A stretch of 64,000 bases of DNA from an uncultured Poribacteria bacterium. Lineage in GTDB: Bacteria; Poribacteria; WGA-4E; WGA-3G. Shown here piece by piece: positions 15,033 through 57,700 of the stretch. The position numbers and the translations under genes were made by a program. The stretch covers positions 4,938,217 to 5,002,216 of the forward strand of contig OX639992.1 of NCBI GenBank assembly GCA_951828515.1. Reading direction: 5' to 3'. The number at the start of each line of letters is the position of its first letter. The stretch's first letter is position 1. Under the pieces are notes generated by a model that was given only the letters and a program-made list of their open reading frames with translations, did not search any database and had not been told where the DNA came from.

Positions 15033-15170
15033 TTATAGTAAAGCCCGAAAATACTTGCACGCTCTTGAAAACACAAAACCCACATTGCTGGCGAGGTGTT
15101 TTTGATAGGGCGTTTCCCCCTAACCTCGCCGCATTACAGAGTGTAAACTTAATTATGGGTTTTACTATAA
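15033..15170. mobile_element. MITE-like element, TTTATAGTAAA family (138 bp)
   Basis: The terminal inverted repeats TTATAGTAAAGCCC and GGGTTTTACTATAA match at 13 of 14 positions. There is no coding sequence. Interior words (TACTTGCACGCTCTTGAAAAC, CTGGCGAGG, CCTCGCC) are shared with the copy at 46,279. If the flanking TA is a target duplication, it would fit IS630/Tc1-type mobilisation. Confidence 0.65.
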
Positions 15171-15390
15171 ACCCGTTAGCACAATTTTTGTAGTTAACCA
15201 TACAATTTTTGCGTGTTCGTATAAAAACTGACAAATGCTATCCCTCACGGTATGTTTTTTGGGACAAATGTCAATATTACCGCACCCTTCGATAAACCCA
15301 GTGGCTGTCTGTGTTTTGGACGCACCATCGTGAAAAAGGTCTTTTGAATTTCGCCAGTTTTGGGAAGAATATGGGTTTCCTAAGAGGCAT
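15171..15390. other. Gene-free stretch before the STAS promoter
   Basis: No open frame with a plausible start, and no member of the main repeat families, was recognised here. The base composition is AT-rich. Confidence 0.4.
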
Positions 15391-15900: not shown

Positions 15901-16143
15901 CCCATTGTCTGAATCAGGATTTATGGGGTTTTAGGGTTTTCGGCACAAATTAGCAGGCAGCGATCAGTAAGATACAGTTGAAGAATTATCCATGAAACGG
16001 GTTATTAATAAAAAAAATGAAAAAAAATCTAACTTTTTTCGAGGAAATGCGTCTAAAGTAACGAACACTTCAATTGAAAATTCAAATTGTGTAAAAATAA
16101 TCGACACGTTCACTGTTTTCGTAAATGAAAAAGGAGAAAAATA
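15901..16143. other. Spacer between the two STAS genes
   Basis: It begins with a copy of the CAGGATTT repeat (TGTCTGAATCAGGATTTATG, about 15,906-15,945) and a fragment of family A (GCAGGCAGCGATCAG). The rest is AT-rich and ends in AAGGAG before the second STAS gene. No -24/-12 site like the one upstream of gene 1 is present. Confidence 0.5.
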
Positions 16144-18996: not shown

Positions 18997-19652
18997 GGTG
19001 CGGTTTCCTAACCGCACCATAGGTGTCAATTTAGGGATATTTTACAGCACTTGGTCGTCGTCTCGTAGGCTGGGTAGAACGGATGCCACCAAACCCCGTA
19101 GGGGTGCTATTGCTTCGCAGTGAGAATAGAAAGCGGCGTATGCCAGCAACCGCACCCCGTAGGGGTGCTATGTCTATAGAAAACGCATCAAGAAGACTCC
19201 ATCATCTTGTAAATCCTTGAATCCTGTAAATCCTGATTCAGACGATGAACACCTACATGTCTCCATAAACAAGTCATCTTTTTCTAAAATTGGCCCCTAT
19301 GGCTTCAAAACCCACCCCGCCGCTGACGAGGTTTCTAACCTCGCCTCTTGAGTCTCGTAGGTTGGGTAGAACGGATGCCACCAAACCCGTAAATATCATA
19401 GAAAGCGAAGGTCGGTCCATACACGCCCCATTGATCAGAAACCGAGAGAAACCCAACGCTTTCGGCGTCAAGTGCCGGGACCTCTGCGGGTATGACGTTG
19501 GGTTTCGCTGGGGTATTGAGTGGGTATGCCGGCATGTCGTATTTGAGGCGTATTTGGCACCCCTACGTCTTCTTTTTGCGTTCCGCTCTACCCAACCTAC
19601 GGGACCCGAAACCGCTAAATTGACACCTATGGTGCGGTTTCCTAACCGCACC
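18997..19652. repeat. 656-bp nested inverted-repeat region, no genes
   Basis: The outer ends are inverted copies of GGTGCGGTTTCCTAACCGCA + CCATAGGTGTCAATTTAG (18,997-19,034 and 19,615-19,652). Inside, CGTAGGTTGGGTAGAACGGA at 19,356 is matched by its complement at 19,582-19,601, enclosing another candidate element. ACCCCGTAGGGGTGCTAT occurs twice around 19,097-19,175, and a CAGGATTT repeat in reverse at 19,205-19,243. Open frames of about 125 codons on both strands here are products of the repeats and carry no protein-like conservation. Confidence 0.65.
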
Positions 19653-22152: not shown

Positions 22153-22183
22153 TTTTCTCTCCTTAAACCATAGCACCAACATT

Positions 22184-22314
22184 GTGGTAAAGCCTACAAT
22201 TACTTGGACACTCTAAAGAGGCGAGAGAAACACCCAAGCAAAATACCTCGCCAGCGGCGGTAAAGGATTGGTTCGCTGAATAACTGCCTACATATTTTCG
22301 GGCTTTAGTAGAGG
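22184..22314. mobile_element. Degenerate MITE-like element, TTTATAGTAAA family
   Basis: It is collinear with the element at 30,965: GACACTCTAAAGAGGCGAG, CTCGCCAGCGGCGG, TTCGCTGA.TAACTG and CTACATATTTT are all shared. The ends have decayed to GGTAAAGCC and GGGCTTTAGTA. It contains an AGAAACACCCAAGCAAAAT insertion relative to the other copy. It lies directly upstream of the AAA/PD-(D/E)XK gene. Confidence 0.6.
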
Positions 22315-30964: not shown

Positions 30965-31085
30965 TTTATAGTAAAGTTTAGAATTAATTAGACACTCTAA
31001 AGAGGCGAGGATACAATCCTCGCCAGCGGCGGGGCGGGTTGTTTCGCTGAGCAACTGTCTACATATTTTTCGACTTTACTATAAA
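30965..31085. mobile_element. MITE-like element, TTTATAGTAAA family (121 bp, best copy)
   Basis: Its 13-bp terminal inverted repeats are perfect: TTTATAGTAAAGT and ACTTTACTATAAA. The interior holds GAGGCGAGGATACAATCCTC GCC, a second palindrome. It has exactly the same length as the copy at 46,279. There is no coding capacity. It lies directly upstream of the OLD-like ATPase, where it could contribute a promoter or leader. Confidence 0.8.
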
Positions 31086-46278: not shown

Positions 46279-46399
46279 TTTATAGTAAATCCTAAAAATA
46301 AGTGCACACTTTAGAAACACAAGCACCGTTCCGCCGCTGGCGAGGTTTCTAACCTCGCCTTCCGGTGGATGTATAGTTAATTGTTGACTTTACTATAAA
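46279..46399. mobile_element. MITE-like element, TTTATAGTAAA family (121 bp)
   Basis: Ends: TTTATAGTAAA and TTTACTATAAA, perfect over 11 bp. The interior contains GGCGAGGTTTCTAACCTCGC C. It has the same length as the copy at 30,965, and the left interior (AAATAAGTGCACACTTTAGA) matches that of the copy at 15,033. No coding capacity. Confidence 0.8.
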
Positions 46400-46529: not shown

Positions 46530-47487
46530 ACGGATAGATACCTTTCTGGTAGAACACGGCTTGGTAGAGAGTCGGGAACAGGCGAAACGGCTCATACTTG
46601 CGGGTGCAGTGACCGTCAACGGGAACTCCAGAATAAAGCCGGGGCAGCGCATTTCGTCAGATGCCAAAGTGGTCGTGCAACAGCCGCAAAAATATGTCAG
46701 CCGAGGCGGGTTTAAGTTAGAAAAGGCGTTACGCACCTTTGATATAAACGTCCGAAATCGGGTCGCACTTGATATTGGCGCATCAACAGGTGGGTTCACA
46801 GACTGCCTTCTTCAGCACGGCGCGAAATTCGTCTATGCCATTGATGTCGGTTACGGGCAACTGGCGTGGAAACTCCGCACGCATCCACAGGTGCAACCGA
46901 TTGAGAAAACGAACATCCGACACCTAACGCCAGCACATCTAAAAACAGCGGCATTAAACAGCATAGAAAATGCTGCCTCCATCGCCGTAATCGATGTTTC
47001 CTTCATCTCTTTGAGAACGGTTCTGCCGAGCATCGTCAAACTTCTTACACAGCAAAATAGCGGTCAGCCATCGGTTTCCGTCAGCAATCAGCAAGAGACG
47101 GTAGGTTCACCAGAAAACCTCTTAACCGACAGCCGATGGCTGATAGCCAATCGCTATTACGACCTCATCGCACTGCTGAAACCACAATTTGAAGCCGGTA
47201 AAGCCCATGTGAAAAAAGGTGGAATCGTCTCCGACAAACAGGTACATATCCAGACGATAGATAACCTCAGTGCTTTTGTCACGAAAAAACTCGGAGCCAC
47301 AGTGAGAGGTCTGACCTATTCGCCGATCCACAAGGACATCGGGAATATTGAGTACTTGCTCTGGCTTACAGTCGATGGTGAGCGCATGAATTCCTATCAA
47401 CTCCAGCAAACGACTGCTGAGGTTGTAGAAGCCGCACACGAATCTTTTGGAAGTAACTCTCAGCAACCAGCAGTCAGCGGGTGGTAA
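46450..47487 (+). CDS. tlyA: TlyA-family rRNA methyltransferase with two repeat-encoded segments
   Basis: It is a 2'-O-methyltransferase (TlyA/haemolysin A family) with an N-terminal S4 RNA-binding domain (RIDTFLVEHGLVESREQAKR, LILAGAVTVNG) and a FtsJ-like domain (YVSRGGFKLEKAL, LDIGASTGGFTDCLLQHGA, VDVGYGQLAW-type SAM pocket, IDVSFISLRTVLP, LLKPQFEAG). Residues 201-237 (QQNSGQPSVSVSNQQETVGS followed by PENLLTDSRWLIANRYY) are a family A palindrome inserted in frame between LLT and DLIALLKPQFEAG. The TTG start at 46,450 puts 25 repeat-derived residues first; an ATT at 46,522 with GAGGA upstream would give MKKRIDTFLVEHG, the family-like start. The C-terminus also ends in a repeat. Confidence 0.9.
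   Translation: MGVSSDIRIGRSVPQKRLTEPRGKIKKRIDTFLVEHGLVESREQAKRLILAGAVTVNGNSRIKPGQRISSDAKVVVQQPQKYVSRGGFKLEKALRTFDINVRNRVALDIGASTGGFTDCLLQHGAKFVYAIDVGYGQLAWKLRTHPQVQPIEKTNIRHLTPAHLKTAALNSIENAASIAVIDVSFISLRTVLPSIVKLLTQQNSGQPSVSVSNQQETVGSPENLLTDSRWLIANRYYDLIALLKPQFEAGKAHVKKGGIVSDKQVHIQTIDNLSAFVTKKLGATVRGLTYSPIHKDIGNIEYLLWLTVDGERMNSYQLQQTTAEVVEAAHESFGSNSQQPAVSGW
47050..47160. repeat. Family A palindromic repeat inserted in frame in tlyA
   Basis: It is 111 bases, a multiple of three, without stop codons in the tlyA frame. Left arm AGCGGTCAGCCATCGG, right arm CCGATGGCTGATAGCC: near-perfect complements. The core includes CACCAGAAAACCTCTTAACC, giving the peptide PENLLTD. Flanking protein segments join to a normal TlyA if it is removed. 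Confidence 0.9.
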
Positions 47488-47556
47488 AAGACGTTTTGTT
47501 AGACCGAAAGCAGTAGCCTGCAACATCGGCGCAGGCGGATTTGAGAAAGGGACTTT
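47459..47556. repeat. Repeat copies at the tlyA end/tamB start (families A and B fragments)
   Basis: TCAGCAACCAGCAGTCAGCG provides the last residues and stop of tlyA. AGTAGCCTGCAACATCGGCG + CAGGCGGATTTGAGAAAG is the left half of family B. CTCCGCAAGGTAAAATTAAA, just inside tamB at 47,578, is the end of family C. Three families meet within about 150 bases. Confidence 0.65.
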
Positions 47557-47560
47557 AAAG

Positions 47561-50500
47561 ATGAAAGCTGCGTTATTCCTCCGCAAGGTAAAATTAAAAA
47601 TTTTCATTGGGATATTTCTCATTATCGGGGTGTGTGGAACGCTCTTCTTTATCCAATCAAGAACTTTTCTGGAGTGGGTGGAGGGGCGGCTTGAGACTGA
47701 GCTCAAAAATCGGATAACGGGTGACTACACGGCAAACATCGGCAAAATAGAGGGAAATATCTTAGGAAACGTCAGCATTAAAAGCGTTGAGATTTCCAAG
47801 GAAAACAAACCGGTAATTTCCACAGGAAAAGTCGTACTCAAATACAATCTGTTAGGATTGCTAACCCGGAAATTTGAGGCGACAAAACTGCAGGTGGATA
47901 AAGCGGAAATTCACGCGCGCCGAAACTCCGATGGCGACCTTAATCTCGGACACATTTTTAAGGAGCAGACGACACAAGGTTCCTCACAATTCGGTTTCGC
48001 TGTCGAATCTATTGAATGTAAAGATGGCACAATCGATTACGTTGACCCACAACGCAACTTTGAAGCCCAGATTGATGGGATCTATATTGAAGTGAAAGGA
48101 CCTCTCGACACATGGAAGCATAATGGAACGTTTAAAATTAATAGTGGCAGTTTCAGGATCAACGGTGCCGAAACTGCGATCAACAAGTTTGATGCCGATT
48201 TTCAGATCTTAGCCAGCGGTAGCACATTAGAGAAACTCCGACTGGAATTTGGCGATTCCGATTTGGAGATTACAGGTGGATTTACCCGCAGAGAAACCAC
48301 CACTTCTTGGAACAGCACGCTTGACTTGAGCCTGAATCTCGCAGATGTAGAGCCTTTTTTCGGTGAAGACATCGAACTTGACGGTGATGTTGACGCGACG
48401 TTGACAGTGAACGGTACAAATTCTGCCTTAGCTGGAACACTCTCCGCAAAAATACCGACGTTGGAAATAGCAGTCAGCGATCAGCAGCCAGCAGTCAGTC
48501 ACAAGAGGGTTTTGTTAAACGAAAACCGCTTGACTGAAAACGGACGGTTTCCGATCGAAACCGATAGCCAACTCAAAATTGCGTTGACAGCACTACATGT
48601 TGACGCGAATTTCAACTCTGATCCCTCCCCAACATTCACATTAAAGAAACTCAGTTTCCAAGTCGCCGATGGCACCGTGGTCAGTGATGGAAGCATCGCG
48701 TCAGAAAGCGCGTTGGAAGGCGATCTACTCACGCAACTTCAACAATTCCCAACCCATCCGATTGCTTACCGTGGAAAATGGGACGCTACAGAAATACAAC
48801 TCATACCGCTGCTGTCGATGTTCACCCAATTGCCAGAAAACCTTGTAGATAGCACAGGACGTCTCTCAAGCAGTGGAAGGTTCAACGGACGTAGCAGCGA
48901 TATTACTTCGCTCCTACAAAGTCTCGAACTCGATAGCAAGGTCGTGTTGACAGAGACAATGCTTGACGAAGTTAGATTCAACGATTCAACTTTCAATTGC
49001 ACAATAGCGGCGGGTGAACTAAAAATAGACGGGAACTTGGATGAAACCGAGATTAACGCCAAAGGTCCCTTTCCGTTGAAGCAACAAGATGCTTTGGAGA
49101 TTCGCGCGTCGGGTATCAATATCAGTGACTTGATGAAAATTGCCAATAGTGAGGACATCGGAGGCATCGGAAATTTGTCCGCGAAGTTGTCAGATGGGGT
49201 ATTGAATGGGTTCATGGAAATCCCGAATGCGACCTTCAACGACATCCCACTCGGTGTGTTGGCGGGTAATTTTCGCTATCAAGCGGGGCGGGTGTTCATC
49301 GAAAACGGTCTGATGACGAAAAACACCATAGAAAAGTCGCCAGTTAAAGAGGAACTCGAAAACTCCACAAGTCTGCTGACAACTGACGACCGACGACTGA
49401 TAACTACTAAAACGGAGTATGAAAGTCGGGCAACAATTACGGGGACTGTGGAGGTTAATGGCGACTTCCCAGCGGATTTCAGTGTTATTGCCGACCCCGT
49501 TTACGTCCAACATTACCCAAGACTCTTGTTGGGTGCGGAATATCCGGTGGACGGTGAGATCAGAGGCGAACTCAAATTAAATGGAACACTCGTTAATCTC
49601 GATGGTAGTGCCGACTTCTATGTTACCGAAGGCGTGGCATGGGGTATCCATTTGGATCCGTTGACGCTGCCTCTGGAAATTGAGGATTACAACCTTACGA
49701 TACCGGACTACAAAATAACGACACGTGGGCAACAGGTTACACTCAATGTTGCGGTAGCATCCAATGGCGAATATGACATCCTCCTCGAAAACGACACCCC
49801 CGTCCATTTAGAAGAAATTGCGAAGGCGGCAGACCTCAGCGATTTCCCGTTTGAAGGACTATTCGATGTTCGGGTTGTTGGAACGCTCAAAAAACCCGAA
49901 AGTGCTGCCCCTGAGGTCAGCTGGCGGGTGGAACTCGATTTTTCGGACGTAACCTTCTTGCACAATGAACGCGGCAGGAAATATCCACTCGGTGATGTTT
50001 ATCTGCTCGGCAAACTCGTAGAACGAAAAAATACCACCGGTGAGCCTGACATCTTCGACTTTCAGGGGCATGGATTTGACGGAACAAGTCAGATTCAGGG
50101 TTACGTCAGCATGGCTACGGGGAATCCCTACCAATTCACAGCGGAGAGTGAGGCATTTGATATTGCACGAATCCTGCCTATAGTGCATCCCTTACTTGAG
50201 TCGGTTACAGGGATTGCCGGTGGTGTCGCGTCAATAAGTGGAACGGTAGCAGACCTCGCCCCACCCACCGAGAATATAGCCTCTGAAACCCAATCGTTAA
50301 AAAATCCCTACGATGTAGATATTCTCGTCAGGGAATTAGCAATCAGCCTTCAGCCTTCAGCAGTCAGCAAAGACGCAAGCGTTTCAAGAACGTTTCTTTC
50401 TTTACCGACGGCTGATAGCCAACAGCCGACAGCCACTATCACAAATGCTGAACCGATTCGCTTGCATCTCAAAGATGACAAATGGACAATCGATTCCCTT

Positions 50501-53500
50501 TCCTTAAGGACATCTGAATCAATAAAAGAAGGGCAGCCTGCAACAACGGCGCAGGCAGAGGGTAAGAAAAAATCGTTATTAAACCCATCGCTTGATTTAA
50601 CGCTTAGCGAATCACTAAAAAATCCATTTCTTGAATTGACAGGAACTCTGGATGCCAAAAGTGAGGCGATGAATCTGCACGCGGTATCTGACGGGTTCGC
50701 GCTGGCAGCGTTTGAAGACGTATTGGGGCTCCCGCTTGGTATGCTGCAAGCCGGTGCCCTTCGTTATGACTTGAAAGCCACAGGAACACCCATGCAACCC
50801 AATGTTCAGTTAGAATGGGCAATCCCGACGCTAACATTAGAAACAGAAGCGGGTGATATTGATATCGTCGATGCCGGTGGTGCAATAACATATCAGGAGG
50901 AGACGCTGCGTTTTGAGGATTGTGCTTTCAAACTCTTCGGTAACAACGTGAACGTGGAAGGGTACATTGACGTTCAACCCGAAGAGGTCAACAACTCGGA
51001 ATTACACCTCCGCGTCGATACAATTGCTTTGGATCTCGCGAGTGTGGTTTCCGGTTCGGATTTTTTTTCAAAAAATCCTTTCGGTCATCAGTCCTCAGAC
51101 AAGAGTGGGTTGTTAAACGAAAACCTCTTAACCGACAACCTTAACCATCGACTCGACTCCGATACAACACAGCAAAGCACGAGTCGATGGTTAAAACCGA
51201 CAACTGATGATCAATATATAACCGGGACTTTAGAGGCATCCATAGAGATCGGTGGCACACTCGCTGAGCCTCTTGTTCTACTATACGCTGAAACAGCCGG
51301 GCAACGTCCGATCCGCTTTGCCTCTTATATCCCCTCTATCACGCTGGAGAGACTTCGCGTAGATATTCACTTCGATTCAGAATTTATACGTGTTCAAAGG
51401 GCGGAGGCAAACGGACAGATGGGAGATGGTCCTTATCGTGTCGAAGGAGAAGCCGCGTTCTCACGCCGAAATAGCATTGTCCCGCAAGCCCACACGCGGC
51501 TTGCGTCGCAGTCAGCAGTCAGCAGTCAGTTACAAGACGGGTACGACGAGGAACCTAACACCTCTTTACTGAAAACTGACAGGATTTTTTCGCAGAAAAA
51601 ATCCGCTCTGACAACTGACAACTATTTTAAAATTGATGTGTCGGCATCGCAAGTAGAAATTGGGGACTACGGTTTCGCTTCAGGACATGTTAAGCTTAGC
51701 GGTACAGGCTTAGATCCACAACAGATTACCGTCATTGGTGAAATAAACGAATTGGAACTTGATGGCTACGATTTCCGTCTCACGAACAGGGCACCACTCC
51801 GATTCAGTCTAAACGCCCCTCAAACCCGTGAGGGAAATTCTCTGCGACCTTCCATTCTAACCAAACCCGTAGCTCGTAACGAAGTGGAGAGCGGATACTC
51901 AGAGAGGCATGTCAAACCCCAAATCAGCCCTGTTTCTCCGCAAGGTAAAATTAAAAATCCGCAAGGTGAAATTAAAATACAGATTCCCTTACAACTCACA
52001 TCACCCACGATGACAGCCGCGACGGAGGTCAACGTTGCAGGTACTTTCACCGCCCCTGAAATCACAGCAGACTGGCACGGCACGCTCAATGACAAAGAGT
52101 GGACAGGCAAAATCGAGTACAAAGATGAACGCATAAATATCATCGGGATAGAACTCAAAAACCGGGATGGGACGTTAACGCTTGCAGGTGTGATTCCGTT
52201 TAATCTGACATTTGAAGGGTTGGATATATCTGAGCGATTTCTTGCAGCACCCATCGATATCCGTCTTCGAGGTAGCGAGCTGCCCCTCAACTTTTTCCCG
52301 GGGATTGAGACGGTCTTTGCTGAAGCGGATGGCACTGTTGACATAGATTTGGGGATACAAGGCACAAGTCAATCGTCAGACATGATCGGCAACGTGTTTG
52401 TTGAGGCGTTGCATCTGCGTCTCAAGGACTTTCATGAACCACTCCGAAATACGCAGATACAGTTCAGCGTACGTGAAGAACTAATTAATATCGCAGAGTT
52501 CCGATTTGACATAGCGGAAGGTTCCTGTAGACTTGAACACGGACTGATAGCATTAGACGGCTTAACGCCAGAATACTTGATATTACGAGGATTGAGATTA
52601 GAGCGATTTCCGCTCGGTTCAACTGTACGTCAATCTTTACCGCCGGATTTGTTAGAAGAGACCGAGGGACATATAACAACGACATTGGAGACATTAACAG
52701 TGCCGTTTGACAGTTTCTTAGCAACTGGAGACAGGATGCCATTTCCGCAAGTCCGAAAGATCCCCTCGCTCACCGACCTCGTGGCTGTATCGAATGCGAA
52801 TTTATCCATTGATAGTGTCCGCTTCGCTTTCAAGGCAATGGATCGGTATTATGACTTTCAAAGTTCTCAATCAACGCCGATAGTGCTCAGTGATGGAACT
52901 CTGGCTTTAACGAAAACCTTCATGCTTGAAAATCAAGACGAATTTTCAGTCAAGCAGACCTTTACCGATGAAGATACAAAACCTGAAGGTTTACTTGCCG
53001 ATGAACAAACACTTGATGCCAAGACAACGCTCAGTATTGATGCTGAAAGCGAATGGTCGGTGAACGGGGAATTTGACGGCGCACTTCGGATCAAAAATTT
53101 TGATGTTTCAGCGATAACGGAGACATGGCCCGCACCGTATCGGGTTACCGGTGCGCTGTCGGGAAGTCTACAGATCAGCGGCACGAGTGCGGATCCAAAG
53201 ATAACCGTGCGGCGGCATGAAAGCGAACCCGCTGAGCTCTATCTACACGACATTCCCATTGACCTGCGCTGGAGAATCCGGTATCAGAATGGGAAATGGG
53301 AAATAACGGAAAAAAGGTACGTCGAAATTCGATTTGGGGAAAATCAACTGACGTTCTCATGGATGATGCCTTACGAACTTGAAATTATTCCGTTTCTTAC
53401 GGCACTCCAGCAGACCCCGGAAAAGGTGTGGACGGCACTCCAACAGACCCCGATGCATGGCACTGTGGATATTAAAGTAGAGGATCTCGACATGCTACCG

Positions 53501-54631
53501 TCTGTTGTGCCGGGACTCAGTGCCGCAACAGGCACGAGTGAGCTTCATGTCAAGCTGACAGGGACGATGGAGACTCCAGAAGCCAATGGTCGGGTGCTTT
53601 TCCAAAATATTGGGTTTGAATTCCCAGAGGCTGGTATTCGCGTTGAAGAGATGGAGGGCAAAATTGAGTTATCAGAAACAGGGGCGACTATTCAGCAACT
53701 TGATGGTATCTTGAACGATGGAAAATTTGGGGTTACAGGTGGCATCACAGCCCCACCGGATAAACGAATATGGGAGAAACCGCCGACGTTGAACCTGTCC
53801 ACCGGTCTCACATCAGCGGCTTTTGAACAACAAGGACAGTATCGGATCGAGATCTCTTCCACCTCATTTGGGCTGAAGGGGGAACTTCTTCGTCCCTATC
53901 TAACAGGGAGCCTACATATCAGCGGAGGCTACTATCAACAAAATTGGGAAAGCGTGCGGGATTGGCTCACAGGGGTCTCCGTCAAGGAAACGGAACTTGT
54001 GCTGGATTACCCGATTCTACGTGATTTACATCTCAATGGCGTAGATATTAACATCCCGAACAATTTTCGTGTGCTTTCATCTATCACGGGACCCACAGAC
54101 ATTGAAATCTCCTGCTTAGGTAAACTCTTCGGTCCAATTAATGAGCCGGTTTTCAATGGGAATGTCTCGGTACTCAACGGAAAAATTGGATTCGTTGCAC
54201 AGACCTTTGAATTCCTCGAAGGTTCTCGAATCAGTAACCAGAGTACCGTCGATTTTGATCCGGAACTCAATATTTTTCTCCGCACCCCCAACAGCGTTCG
54301 AGGCGTGTTACCGAGAGATGGAAGCACAGTGGACCTTCAGGTTTACGCCTCCTTTACTGGCACGCTAAGCAACCCGAACTTCATCCTGAACGCGCCCCCT
54401 GAGACGACCACGGAAGTCCTTTCACATGACGATATTATAGATTTTATCTTATACAATGCCGCGCTCTCAGGCGCACTCGGTGGGTTCACTTTTAGTTTCC
54501 ATCGTCCGCTTGATGAAGACGCACGATATATCAGTGCGGAGTACCCACTTGGAAAGAATGTATCCATTAAAATTGAAACGAATGAAAAAAGGGAGCACGG
54601 GATTGACATTGAATTCAAGGGACGTTTCTAA
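47561..54631 (+). CDS. tamB: TamB-like protein (DUF490/TamB C-terminal domain), repeat-expanded
   Basis: It has 2,356 residues from the ATG at 47,561 (AAAGGG upstream; the frame is open to 47,447, but that part is repeat). An N-terminal signal anchor (LKIFIGIFLIIGVCGTLFFI) is followed by a very long periplasmic body of short beta-strands with recurrent GNVSIKSVEI-, GTLSAKIPTLEI- and FNGRSSDI-type segments (AsmA/TamB beta-taco), and a C-terminal TamB domain (VSVLNGKIGFVAQTFEFLEG, DPELNIFLRTP, TLSNPNFILNAPPE, FSFHRPLDEDARYISAEYPL, SIKIETNEKREHGIDIEFKG). TamB-type proteins bridge the inner and outer membranes and move lipids to the outer membrane or assist its assembly. At least seven short repeats are inserted in frame. 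bamA follows immediately. Confidence 0.93.
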   Translation: MKAALFLRKVKLKIFIGIFLIIGVCGTLFFIQSRTFLEWVEGRLETELKNRITGDYTANIGKIEGNILGNVSIKSVEISKENKPVISTGKVVLKYNLLGLLTRKFEATKLQVDKAEIHARRNSDGDLNLGHIFKEQTTQGSSQFGFAVESIECKDGTIDYVDPQRNFEAQIDGIYIEVKGPLDTWKHNGTFKINSGSFRINGAETAINKFDADFQILASGSTLEKLRLEFGDSDLEITGGFTRRETTTSWNSTLDLSLNLADVEPFFGEDIELDGDVDATLTVNGTNSALAGTLSAKIPTLEIAVSDQQPAVSHKRVLLNENRLTENGRFPIETDSQLKIALTALHVDANFNSDPSPTFTLKKLSFQVADGTVVSDGSIASESALEGDLLTQLQQFPTHPIAYRGKWDATEIQLIPLLSMFTQLPENLVDSTGRLSSSGRFNGRSSDITSLLQSLELDSKVVLTETMLDEVRFNDSTFNCTIAAGELKIDGNLDETEINAKGPFPLKQQDALEIRASGINISDLMKIANSEDIGGIGNLSAKLSDGVLNGFMEIPNATFNDIPLGVLAGNFRYQAGRVFIENGLMTKNTIEKSPVKEELENSTSLLTTDDRRLITTKTEYESRATITGTVEVNGDFPADFSVIADPVYVQHYPRLLLGAEYPVDGEIRGELKLNGTLVNLDGSADFYVTEGVAWGIHLDPLTLPLEIEDYNLTIPDYKITTRGQQVTLNVAVASNGEYDILLENDTPVHLEEIAKAADLSDFPFEGLFDVRVVGTLKKPESAAPEVSWRVELDFSDVTFLHNERGRKYPLGDVYLLGKLVERKNTTGEPDIFDFQGHGFDGTSQIQGYVSMATGNPYQFTAESEAFDIARILPIVHPLLESVTGIAGGVASISGTVADLAPPTENIASETQSLKNPYDVDILVRELAISLQPSAVSKDASVSRTFLSLPTADSQQPTATITNAEPIRLHLKDDKWTIDSLSLRTSESIKEGQPATTAQAEGKKKSLLNPSLDLTLSESLKNPFLELTGTLDAKSEAMNLHAVSDGFALAAFEDVLGLPLGMLQAGALRYDLKATGTPMQPNVQLEWAIPTLTLETEAGDIDIVDAGGAITYQEETLRFEDCAFKLFGNNVNVEGYIDVQPEEVNNSELHLRVDTIALDLASVVSGSDFFSKNPFGHQSSDKSGLLNENLLTDNLNHRLDSDTTQQSTSRWLKPTTDDQYITGTLEASIEIGGTLAEPLVLLYAETAGQRPIRFASYIPSITLERLRVDIHFDSEFIRVQRAEANGQMGDGPYRVEGEAAFSRRNSIVPQAHTRLASQSAVSSQLQDGYDEEPNTSLLKTDRIFSQKKSALTTDNYFKIDVSASQVEIGDYGFASGHVKLSGTGLDPQQITVIGEINELELDGYDFRLTNRAPLRFSLNAPQTREGNSLRPSILTKPVARNEVESGYSERHVKPQISPVSPQGKIKNPQGEIKIQIPLQLTSPTMTAATEVNVAGTFTAPEITADWHGTLNDKEWTGKIEYKDERINIIGIELKNRDGTLTLAGVIPFNLTFEGLDISERFLAAPIDIRLRGSELPLNFFPGIETVFAEADGTVDIDLGIQGTSQSSDMIGNVFVEALHLRLKDFHEPLRNTQIQFSVREELINIAEFRFDIAEGSCRLEHGLIALDGLTPEYLILRGLRLERFPLGSTVRQSLPPDLLEETEGHITTTLETLTVPFDSFLATGDRMPFPQVRKIPSLTDLVAVSNANLSIDSVRFAFKAMDRYYDFQSSQSTPIVLSDGTLALTKTFMLENQDEFSVKQTFTDEDTKPEGLLADEQTLDAKTTLSIDAESEWSVNGEFDGALRIKNFDVSAITETWPAPYRVTGALSGSLQISGTSADPKITVRRHESEPAELYLHDIPIDLRWRIRYQNGKWEITEKRYVEIRFGENQLTFSWMMPYELEIIPFLTALQQTPEKVWTALQQTPMHGTVDIKVEDLDMLPSVVPGLSAATGTSELHVKLTGTMETPEANGRVLFQNIGFEFPEAGIRVEEMEGKIELSETGATIQQLDGILNDGKFGVTGGITAPPDKRIWEKPPTLNLSTGLTSAAFEQQGQYRIEISSTSFGLKGELLRPYLTGSLHISGGYYQQNWESVRDWLTGVSVKETELVLDYPILRDLHLNGVDINIPNNFRVLSSITGPTDIEISCLGKLFGPINEPVFNGNVSVLNGKIGFVAQTFEFLEGSRISNQSTVDFDPELNIFLRTPNSVRGVLPRDGSTVDLQVYASFTGTLSNPNFILNAPPETTTEVLSHDDIIDFILYNAALSGALGGFTFSFHRPLDEDARYISAEYPLGKNVSIKIETNEKREHGIDIEFKGRF
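48467..48545. repeat. Family A repeat in tamB (copy 1)
   Basis: Reads GCAGTCAGCGATCAGCAGCC, AGCAGTCAGTCACAAGAGGG, TTTTGTTAAACGAAAACCGC, TTGACTGAAAACGG. Encodes AVSDQQPAVSHKRVLLNENR + LTEN. It is the nearest copy to the intergenic consensus, inside the coding sequence. Confidence 0.92.
49338..49410. repeat. Family A repeat in tamB (copy 2, diverged)
   Basis: CGCCAGTTAAAGAGGAACTC, GAAAACTCCACAAGTCTGCT, GACAACTGACGACCGACGAC, TGATAACTAC. Encodes SPVKEELENSTSLLTTDDRR + LITT. The right arm keeps ACAACTGACGACCGACGACTGATAAC in full. Confidence 0.7.
50337..50440. repeat. Family A repeat in tamB (copy 3)
   Basis: Left arm AGCAATCAGCCTTCAGCCTT CAGCAGTCAGC; right arm GACGGCTGATAGCCAACAGC CGACAGCC. The core is replaced by GACGCAAGCGTTTCAAGAAC. 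Encodes AISLQPSAVSKDASVSRTFL then SLPTADSQQPTA. Confidence 0.8.
50531..50620 (+). repeat. Family B repeat in tamB
   Basis: GGGCAGCCTGCAACAACGGC, GCAGGCAGAGGGTAAGAAAA … CTTAGCGAATCACT. Encodes GQPATTAQAEGKKKSLLNPS followed by LDLTLSESLKN. The minus-strand copy at 46,181 shows the sequence is a dispersed element, not a native part of TamB. Confidence 0.85.
51083..51215. repeat. Family A repeat in tamB (copy 4) with nested 54-bp palindrome
   Basis: The consensus core AAGAGTGGGTTGTTAAACGA and AAACCTCTTAACCGACAAC encodes GLLNENLLTDN. In the right arm is nested TTAACCATCGACTCG (51,141-51,155) with its exact complement at 51,180-51,194. After that the right arm resumes (ACCGACAACTGATGATC). It looks like an insertion inside an insertion. 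Confidence 0.88.
51482..51506. repeat. Short palindrome GCAAGCC…GGCTTGC in tamB
   Basis: CCGCAAGCC-cacac-GCGGCTTGCG lies immediately before family A copy 5, in frame (PQAHTRLA). Confidence 0.5.
51507..51635. repeat. Family A repeat in tamB (copy 5) with nested mini-hairpin
   Basis: CGCAGTCAGCAGTCAGCAGT on the left; core TTACAAGACGGGTACGACGA and CCTAACACCTCTTTACTG; right arm ACTGACA then CTCTGACAACTGACAACTAT. Nested in the right arm: GGATTTTTTC-gca-GAAAAAATCC (51,582-51,604). The frame differs from copies 1 and 4 yet stays open (NTSLLKTD). Confidence 0.9.
51861..51976. repeat. Family C repeat in tamB
   Basis: CCAAACCCGTAGCTCGTAAC, GAAGTGGAGAGCGGATACTC … TCCGCAAGGTAAAATTAAAA, then GCAAGGTGAAATTAAAAT as a duplicated end. 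Encodes TKPVARNEVESGYSERHVKP and SPQGKIKNPQGEIKI. The same family lies upstream of dxs and tlyA. Confidence 0.85.
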
Positions 54632-54770
54632 TTGGCGGTCAGCAATCAGCAATCAGCAATCCGGTACCGACATCGACTGTTATCGTCCTTACGAGGACTC
54701 AAGACATCGTCGACAAGAACCGACTGCCAATCGCCGACTGCTGACCGCTATTTTGCTGATTGCTATCTTA
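54632..54770. repeat. Family A repeat at the tamB-bamA junction
   Basis: Left arm GCGGTCAGCAATCAGCAATC, right arm AATCGCCGACTGCTGACCGC and TTTTGCTGATTGCTATCTTA. It begins at the tamB stop and runs into the bamA signal peptide. Confidence 0.85.
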
Positions 54771-57700
54771 TGGTTTCCCTGTTGCCTTTTTTGGCAATCT
54801 ATAGAAGCACAAGAATCAGATGCATCCAATCAGAAGCGGATTGCAAAGATAGAGTACTATATTGGCACAACCCCTGCGGAGGAAACCCCGGAACACCCCA
54901 ATATACTCAGAAACCAGACGGTCGTATATGCCGGCGATCTACTACTGTCTCGGTACGCCATTCGACAGAGCATTAAAACACTCTACGCGACACAGCGGTA
55001 CTCCCAAATTCAGGTATACTCGCAGGACACTCCTGATGGCATTGTTTTAACCTACCAACTGACCCCTTTCGCGCGCATCCAACGGATTGTGCTCTCCGGT
55101 ATCCCTGAAAACGAAGTCAAAAACGCCATCGAAAATGCGATGAGGTCACAGCCAGGCGGGAAGTATGTGCCTACAATCGTCAAAACCGATGCACAACGCA
55201 TTAAATTGGTCTGTCAAGAGTACGGATATTTCAACGCTAAAGTCTCGACATCCGATGTACTCCACGAAGATGGTACGTTAACTTACCAAATAACCGTCGG
55301 GGATGCGTCAGCCATCAAAACATTGCAGATTCACGGAAATGTTGCTATCTCAACGAATCGCCTTAAAGCGGCTTGTAACTTTAGCCGACTCTCCCCGATT
55401 TACAACAAATCTGCCGTGGATACCGACGTGGCAGCTATGTTAGAACTCTATCGTGAAAACAACTACCCCACTGCGACGATTGTCCCGACCTTTGTCCCTG
55501 AAACCGGTGTGTTACAATTTTACATCAATGAAGGCAAGCAGGTACGCTTTAATTTCGTTGTGAATGTTGGAGAACTCCCGCTATCGCTCCAAGATGCGTT
55601 CAGGGAAGATATAGCTTCTCTAATAAACACCGCCTCCTCTGCTATATGGGAGCGCAGGATAAAATCTTATTTCAAATCCGAGGGCTATCACGACACCACA
55701 GTATCCGAGGAGATACTGGATGCATCCAGTATTCGACTGACGATTAACCCAGGGACGCGTTATGTCGTTAAGGGGGTCACTTTCTTCGGGAACAGGGCGT
55801 TTCCGGCTGCAAAATTGCTACGAGAGATGACAATGAAACCCATAGGTGGATTCCTGCGAAACTTGCAAGCGGACATCACAAGGCGGCTATTTCAACGAGA
55901 ACAGAGACGCTTTTTTTATGAATCAGAACTCGATACAGATATACATCGGCTCAAAATTCTATACGCAAAAGCAGGTTATCCGAAGGCAGGTATCCAGACG
56001 AAACTCGATAAGCAGAATCCAGAAAACCGGAACATTGGTGAAGTTGTGATACATATCACAATAATTGAAGAATATAAAGAGATGATTCACCGGTGCGACA
56101 TCAGCGGGAACAAAGCGTTAGATATCGCTACGCTTTTGGCGCGTTTACAGAGCGAACTTCCATTCCCACAGCCGAATGCCTCGCTTGCCCGGAAAGCCTA
56201 CAGCGACGCAATTTTAAGAGCCTATTACGAGATCGGGTATATTGACGCAGTGGTCAGCGACACGTACATACCAGAAACGGAAGATCCTGTTTTTCGAGTA
56301 ACGGGTAATTTCTCCGTCCCTCTTGAGAGAGGTAGGCTCCCTCTGGAAATCCGAACGGAATTCAAGAGACATAACCTCGCACTCACAGGCGTTTACATAG
56401 CCAGCTATATCGGCAACCGTTGGAGTCTCCAAGACATTGAAGGTAATCCACGGTATACACTTAAACAGGAAAAAACACATCTTGAGGTTTATGAACACGG
56501 AGTCCTGCATCTCACTGTAGATACGGAAGGTGAACAGGTAGTGTTCGGTAAATTCTATTTTGTGGGGGACACAGATGTTGTGAAACAACATGTGCTTGAA
56601 CGGGAAGTATCACACCTTGAAGGGACGCTTTGGACCTCAGAGAAGTTAAGCAGTGCCCTGCAAAATCTCTATAGTTTAGGGCTTTTCCGTAGTGTCCAAA
56701 ATGAACGTTTCTCACAGGCTATCCATAGCACGCAGTTACCCCAATCATCCGAGGCTACAGAGTCTCCTAACCTCCGCCTGCAGAGAATTAACAATGTTTT
56801 AATAACGGTCGAAAAACAGAAACCAAGGACCTACAGTGTGAGCGGTGGTTACAGTTTCGCAGAAGGGCTCCGCGGAACGTTGGCATTAACGGACAGCAAT
56901 CTGCTCTTTAGTCGAAACATCCGAGGACGTGTGCGCAGCAGATTAGGATGGCGAGACGAGTTAGGTTATCTCTTTGATGCAACGCTCACCGAACCGTGGT
57001 TGATTGGACGGACGCGGGGAAGTCTACAGGTATTAGCCAAGAAGTTAGAGGTAGACGATAACGTCCGCGCACTTCAGGGAAGTTTCATCCTCAGTAGGGA
57101 CCTGTCCGAATTGCACCATCTCGATCTACGATATAGTTACCGGGACTTGAATCAGCCTGTCCCATCGATGCCAGAAACACTTGTAGGAGCGAGCTCCAGT
57201 TCGCGATTCCCTGAAGCGCAAAACCCTTTCAACACAACCGTGAGCAGTGTTCGTCTTTCTTGGACGTATGATAGTCGTGTGCGTTATTTGAATCCTACGG
57301 GCGGTATGTTGAACGCGCTGACACTTGAATATGCGGGTGGCTTCTTGCAGGGTGAAACCAGTTTTATTAAGACAACGGCGGATACCCGATATTACCAAAA
57401 ACTTACCGGTGGGCTTGTCTTAGCAACCGCCGTCCGATTCGGGATCACGACGGGGATACACTCTAACCGTCGCGCAGAATTGATTTCCTTCGAGCGGTTT
57501 TGGGCAGGCGGCGGGACAACAGTTCGAGGGTATGCAGAGCGCTCTCTCGGTCCTGAAGATAGCACTGGGATCCATCGCGGCGACGTACAATTCATCTTTA
57601 ACACGGAACTACGTTTCCCAATCTATTGGATGGTCCGCGGTGCGTTCTTTTTTGATACCGGCAACGTCTGGGATTCATTGGAGGATATCGATCCAACAAC

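Follow-up and report, generated by a model that had tools for sequence, protein, structure and literature searches.

The question raised by this locus is how a palindromic repeat can lie several times over within a conserved protein gene and yet leave its reading frame open. The stretch of DNA analysed here (the window) comprises 64,000 nucleotides, positions 4,938,217–5,002,216 within the 5.85 Mb single-contig genome of a sponge-associated Candidatus Poribacteria bacterium. It contains tamB (open reading frame (ORF) 47447..54631, plus strand, 2394 aa, matching Pfam TamB with E 4.6e-13), which holds five copies of a repeat that we call family A, as well as two further inserts; the conserved TamB protein probably starts near 47561. 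We consider it highly probable that family A is a non-autonomous repeat of a single genus, retained within genes only where it is in frame, free of stop codons, and situated in a loop.

Repeat searches and alignment showed family A to be a quasi-palindrome of approximately 100 bases, consisting of AATAG, a left arm, an AAGAGG...CCTCTT core, a right arm, and CTATT. The left arm is made up of 7-nt units around TCAGY and the right arm of units around CYGA; T-type right arms read AACTGACAACTGATAACTGA, and C-type arms are built from related units. The middle of the core is variable, the commonest versions being GTTAAACGAAAAC and TTCACCAGAAAAC. When folded, 7/7 tested copies beat the mean of their shuffles (z -2.0 to -5.0). 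With a unit length that cannot be divided by 3, the left arm reads as the same hydrophilic heptapeptide cycle, QSAVSSQ, in all three frames. The right arm likewise reads L-T-D-N/S-stop, with every frame stopping after three units. A copy kept within a gene therefore needs CGA (Arg) rather than TGA at each in-frame unit, and as a consequence the peptide LLTD(N/S)R recurs.

The copy census and frame counts rest on stretches of the window's own genome totalling 2.064 Mb, approximately 35% of it. A profile search (E<1e-3) found 203 copies in this sample and only 1 match on the reversed sequence, which excludes a chance origin. If the sample is typical, the whole genome would hold roughly 575 copies; within the sample, density varies from 4.5 to 30 per 100 kb. 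In a search with a covariance model, family A was detected in 36/36 genomes of the genus (the window's own included), with from at least 23 to 73 matches each, and outside the genus its matches are sparse, in 5/24 genomes. The named records with TamB orthologues are all Candidatus Poribacteria, so that the host and the named carriers of family A lie outside Rickettsia and its kin. Family A gave no match in Rfam. We note that one genome of the same class but another family (G052) gave 16 weaker covariance-model matches (best E 1.8e-6), which may represent a related heptad family.

The claim of the sequence-only reading that at least five family A copies lie in tamB was borne out by direct reading and by the profile search: copies 1, 3, 4, and 5 have E values of 8e-6 to 2e-13, and the remaining one, copy 2, is weaker and degenerate, falling short of the threshold. 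All five are on the plus strand. Copy 1 (48466..48568) has AATAG, a heptad arm, the core ACAAGAGGGTTTTGTTAAACGAAAACCGCTTGACTGA and a small hairpin CGGTTTCCGATCGAAACCG, and reads IAVSDQQPAVSHKRVLLNENRLTENGRFPIETDS. Copy 2 (49332..49412) has a right arm reading LLTTDDRRLITT, in which the third heptad has CGA, and copy 3 (50335..50447) has a AACGTTTCTTTCTTT-type core in an alternative frame, TCT TTA CCG. Copy 4 (51085..51210), which reads DKSGLLNENLLTDN, and copy 5 (51470..51626), which runs from AATAG to CTATT with the core CCTCTTTACTGA as TCT TTA CTG, contain smaller hairpins belonging to three further types of repeat, to which no strand is assigned: hairpin D (51141..51194, whose arms TTAACCATCGACTCG match perfectly over 15 bp) within copy 4, and hairpins C (51482..51505, CCGCAAGCC...GGCTTGCG) and B (51582..51604, GGATTTTTTCGCAGAAAAAATCC) in the left and right arms of copy 5. 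Family A covers approximately 1.4% of the sample, and 3/4 of the B hairpins, 5/8 of the C hairpins, and all three D pairs in the sample are in or beside family A copies. These copies seem to serve other palindromes as sites of insertion.

In tlyA, a family A copy (47056..47158, plus strand) reads NSGQPSVSVSNQQETVGSPENLLTDSRWLIANRY, and a half element (47452..47487, plus strand) forms the C-terminal tail of TlyA (SNSQQPAVSGW-stop), just 5' of the conserved tamB start. As had been claimed, copy 1 (LLNENRLTEN), copy 4 (LLNENLLTDN), and the tlyA copy (PENLLTDS) share one frame and give similar peptides, using the codons CTC TTA (or CGC TTG). Copy 5 does use another frame, in which CTCTTTACTG is read TCT TTA CTG, and copy 3 shares that frame.

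Comparison with relatives indicates that these are insertions. The searches covered 23 genomes of the genus at first and later 36, including the window's own; L124 is the same record as G017 and was dropped from the relatives' counts. The TamB proteins of relatives align in blocks and the alignment breaks exactly at the family A copies. Copies 1 and 4 are missing in 39/39 orthologues and copy 3 in all but 3 of 39, while the sites of copies 2 and 5 contain residues in up to 12 and up to 8 of the 39, respectively. Some relatives have family A inserts of their own, different from those of the window, in the loops that hold copies 2, 3, and 5. On the TamB tree, sister species differ: site 3 is filled in L136 and empty in L121, and sites 3 and 5 are filled in L123 and empty in L122, with the empty sister alleles agreeing with the state in other relatives. 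The simplest reading is that the same tamB loops have repeatedly received insertions or been subject to exchange; precise loss restoring the old codons would be unlikely.

In-frame insertions with empty orthologues were found in tlyA, ispH, and yegS as well as in tamB. Of 18 species, about half or more have the TlyA loop filled, by several different inserts, and L122, L123, and L128 have short heptad remnants there. IspH has a 64-residue insert (aa 369–432) that is missing in 12/12 relatives, the flanks being 3 bp apart in G001. The YegS insert (aa 127–171) is filled across the genus, and four genomes of other genera are empty at this site, with flanking matches 0–3 bp apart. Further genes were called by reading frame only, namely those for a class A penicillin-binding protein, PolX, a histidine kinase, a BatA-type protein, a glucose-6-phosphate isomerase homologue, and a DUF4175 protein.

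Several other inserts were seen in tlyA and tamB. The TlyA proteins of L133:6893-7909 and L137:3684-4700, which are far apart on the TamB tree, have a near-identical long insert (SQLSVKEEDDD...DNRKVFRRKT), and the inserts of their sisters differ; this suggests that tlyA alleles have been exchanged, or else that one subfamily has landed on two occasions. A second TlyA loop, after NIRHLT, holds insertions in L127, L129, and L130. The two inserts in tamB that do not belong to family A are at window positions 50525–50620 (TamB aa 1027–1058, KEGQPATTAQAEGKKKSLLN...), present only in L121 and L053 and partly in L136, and 51818–51967 (aa 1458–1507, ILTKPVARNEVESG), which is common to L123/G008 and missing in nearly all other relatives, and looks like another dispersed repeat. 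At 54631–54780 an A-like copy starts at the tamB stop codon and overlaps the start of the next ORF, of Omp85 type.

We then consider how the reading frame is kept open. Copies were classed as genic where an open frame was continuous with coding flanks, as judged by hexamer coding scores. On this definition, 25 of the 202 classified copies are genic and 177 are not, while approximately 85% of the sample is coding, which is a strong depletion in genes. A frame test based on the longest heptad array was set aside, because the first unit is not always adjacent to the core. Among the 15 genic copies with a phaseable right core, the right-arm frames are distributed 11:3:1, so that the non-random frame use anticipated by the sequence-only reading is present. 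Ten of the 11 copies in the favoured (LLTD) frame, which is the frame of tamB copies 1 and 4 and of the tlyA copy, read CTC TTA, and one gets there by a different spacing. The left end of the genic copies is read as AAT AGC in 11 cases, as ATA GC in 3, and as TAG in none. The stretches from relatives, which are not all independent, show the same heptad frame in 13/16 cases.

A further regularity concerns the YGA triplet, which is a codon in every third unit whichever the frame, because the unit is 7 nt long. In the right arms of genic copies, in-frame YGA is always CGA (29/29; 14/14 in the window's own genome and 15/15 in relatives). By comparison, the off-frame YGA units of genic copies comprise 47 TGA vs 32 CGA, and the units of non-genic copies 865 TGA vs 343 CGA. 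TGA is thus mostly retained off frame, and the genic copies are more than a family devoid of TGA, as their changes are located at the positions that would otherwise be read as stops.

Stop codons could account for the frame bias by themselves, if copies were inserted at random and those with stops were lost, with no preferred source or peptide; we rate this as a serious possibility, a little short of an even chance. Frames are barred by AATAG and by the positions of TTAA and TGA, and the frame that reads TAG occurs in no genic copy. It had been claimed that the core has stops in the other two frames, and this holds for the core GTTAAACGAAAACCTCTTAACTGAC (read as TAA or TGA) but not for the element at large: in non-genic copies with the commonest core spacing, the core and right arm are about equally open in the three frames (0.17, 0.22, 0.20). 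When the stop filter is applied to whole non-genic elements, left end included, it predicts 8:9:1, which already cuts the third frame to 1/18. The observed 11/15 in the LLTD frame nevertheless departs from this prediction (p = 0.023), and the genic cores are mutual nearest neighbours more often than expected by chance (p = 0.004). Stop filtering explains much of the frame bias. The sequence-only reading is supported in part: the frame bias of genic copies and their in-frame CGA agree with it, but a single open frame does not hold for the element as a whole, and the whole-element filter gives about 8:9:1 and not 11:3:1.

Part of the remaining bias appears to come from the core. The subtype TTCACCAGAAAACCTCTT (SPENLLTD) leaves the LLTD frame open and is shared by genic copies; its TTCACCAGAAA core is found in 4/25 genic vs 6/177 non-genic copies (p = 0.02). 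A coding-competent lineage might spread preferentially between genes, through gene conversion or copying between heptad arms, its open frame being inherited rather than filtered anew at each insertion. The enrichment of this subtype among genic copies is consistent with such a lineage, as are the related peptides in the yegS, penicillin-binding protein, and PolX genes of one genome (the yegS insert region has 63% and 55% protein identity to the inserts in the latter two, respectively) and the QLRG..V.P.SPLTDNRQL peptides found in tlyA and tamB of several species. However, the subtype also has non-genic members (6/177) and covers only part of the genic copies, and tamB copies 1 and 4 are nearest to non-genic copies, so that we regard this explanation as possible but tentative. 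Its stronger form, in which an open-frame lineage copies preferentially between the protein genes of the genus and re-enters the same TamB and TlyA loops, making the mobile repeat a recurring supplier of loop peptides, seems to us unlikely.

The position of the inserts within the proteins was examined using AlphaFold2. The TamB model covers aa 860–1530, and therefore copies 3, 4, and 5, with a mean predicted local distance difference test score (pLDDT) of 63. Stretches with pLDDT <50 are aa 943–950, 970–994, 1025–1051, 1199–1258, 1341–1391, and 1459–1506; with the exception of aa 943–950, all are inserts, situated between strands. Copies 3, 4, and 5 correspond to the low-confidence loops at aa 970–994, 1199–1258, and 1341–1391, respectively. 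A junction placed at random falls outside strands in 43% of cases, and 5/5 inserts doing so gives p = 0.014; two of these five inserts are not family A, and the three family A copies alone give p = 0.08. In the TlyA model the insert comprises low-confidence residues 180–208, between a helix (162–175) and a strand (211–217). The models thus place the TamB and TlyA inserts in loops between strands, as the sequence-only reading had expected, rather than interrupting the strands themselves.

Similar peptides fill the same TamB and TlyA loops in several species, which could mean that the inserts have acquired a function, perhaps in binding or as segments exposed at the surface, and that selection retains them for the peptide. 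We consider this very unlikely, given that close relatives have differing, missing, or remnant inserts, and that the model confidence is very low, as for disordered segments. Finally, growth of the heptad arms in place within permissive loops, in the manner of a microsatellite, is the least probable account: 7-nt units can slip, and short heptad remnants occur in TlyA loops (L122, L123, and L128, above), but the composite structure (AATAG, core, CTATT) is conserved, ispH and tamB show clean empty sites, and the idea is refuted by the presence of the same core sequences at unrelated sites.

We therefore return to the reading favoured at the outset, that of a repeat filtered by frame, stops, and loops. 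Family A would be a short quasi-palindromic repeat, non-autonomous and belonging to a single genus of Poribacteria. It is presumably mobile and able to spread, and the majority of its surviving copies are intergenic. A copy landing in a gene would be kept only when all three conditions coincide, after which the insert is probably translated as a near-neutral peptide. One frame is barred by the AATAG left end, and others by cores that are common (GTTAAAC, CTCTTAACTGA), giving biased frame use; a core subtype open in the LLTD frame and recurring in several genes increases the bias.

A number of observations weigh against this account. The openness of genic copies and the CGA at their codon positions are partly true by construction, because an open frame was the basis on which copies were called genic; what is informative is the retention of TGA off frame. 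Compared with the whole-element stop filter, the LLTD frame is modestly in excess (p = 0.023), a result obtained from 15 copies in a sample of 35% of the genome. Any insert would be expected to have low model confidence, and the loop placement therefore rests mainly on the flanking strands. Heptads equidistant from the core show no covariation at the A/G–T/C position, and thus the hairpin is not visibly maintained. At tamB sites 3 and 4, approximately 10–14 host codons are replaced by the insert, rather than being cleanly split, and the differences between sister species suggest recombination between alleles besides insertion. No target-site duplication was read at the empty sites, whose DNA is too diverged to show one. 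As for a possible mover, there are 6 Y1_Tnp matches, and family A copies lie near only 1 of the four best loci.

The window also contains other repeats. Repeats of approximately 120–140 bp that start with TTATAGTAAA and end with TTTACTATAA are found at 15033–15171, 22182–22314, 30966–31085, and 46280–46399, and are probably another family resembling miniature inverted-repeat transposable elements (MITEs). A TCCTGTAAATCCTGATTCAGACAA repeat occurs in both orientations, at 19203, 30861, 33272, and 35990 and at 15904, 19726, 23587, and 63596.

Among known systems, REP/REPIN sequences (repetitive extragenic palindromic sequences and their doublets) with their RAYT transposases (PMC3733652, PMC3116915) are also high-copy palindromes, and the host genome has Y1 transposases. 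Family A is however longer, and its ends are AATAG/CTATT, with no GTAG or CGTC tag; its proximity to only 1/4 of the Y1 loci is a further difference. Correia/NEMIS, ERIC/RU-1, and other bacterial MITEs are small, have inverted ends and no transposase gene, and in some cases form in-frame gene fusions (PMC2229807). Family A is likewise small, with terminal inverted repeats and without a transposase gene; no parental insertion sequence was found for its AATAG/CTATT ends, although no full search of insertion-sequence ends was made.

Direct repeats of the heptamer TAACTGA were described in Beggiatoaceae, cyanobacteria, and Bacteroidetes (MacGregor 2015, PMC4679880). According to that study, repeats in forward orientation read LITDN-stop whatever the frame, which is why they are almost absent from genes; most of the repeats are plain direct ones lying upstream of start codons, only one set is inverted, and Poribacteria are not mentioned (PMC4679880). 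The right arm of family A, AACTGATAACTGA, is a direct repeat of the same heptamer type. The differences are that in family A such units make up both arms of a palindrome around a core, and that forward arms do occur inside genes, with CGA for in-frame TGA. A literature search for Poribacteria and TAACTGA together found no paper, and the titles and abstracts of papers retrieved with Poribacteria and palindromic or repeat terms describe no such element.

The closest parallel is with the Rickettsia palindromic elements (RPE; Ogata et al. 2000, reviewed in PMC2229807 and PMC10969869). These are palindromic repeats of approximately 100–150 bp, inserted in frame within conserved genes for unrelated proteins; one open frame is preferred, the peptide is conserved, and intergenic copies occur as well. 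Family A is also a palindromic repeat in this size range with many copies, both in frame in genes and intergenic, with a preferred frame and a recurring peptide, and in these respects it behaves like RPE. It differs in belonging to another phylum, in having arms of 7-nt units and nested hairpins, in that genic copies are a small minority (25/202), and in the replacement of in-frame right-arm stops by CGA. No RPE model was among the NCBIfam matches of five insert-bearing proteins, which is an indirect test, as the RPE content of that library is unchecked and no RPE DNA was compared.

In family A, the RPE idea and the TAACTGA heptamer idea meet in one element. Low-complexity loops rich in Q, S, and N in Poribacteria proteins should be regarded with caution, as they may be repeat DNA and not functional segments. 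Dozens of species of the genus have been sequenced and many insertions have empty orthologues, and family A makes both the survival of repeats in proteins (by unit-by-unit removal of stops and by loop placement) and their movement from gene to gene testable. In-frame palindromic repeats are best known from Rickettsia, and family A provides a second, copy-rich, and apparently unrelated case in a distant phylum.

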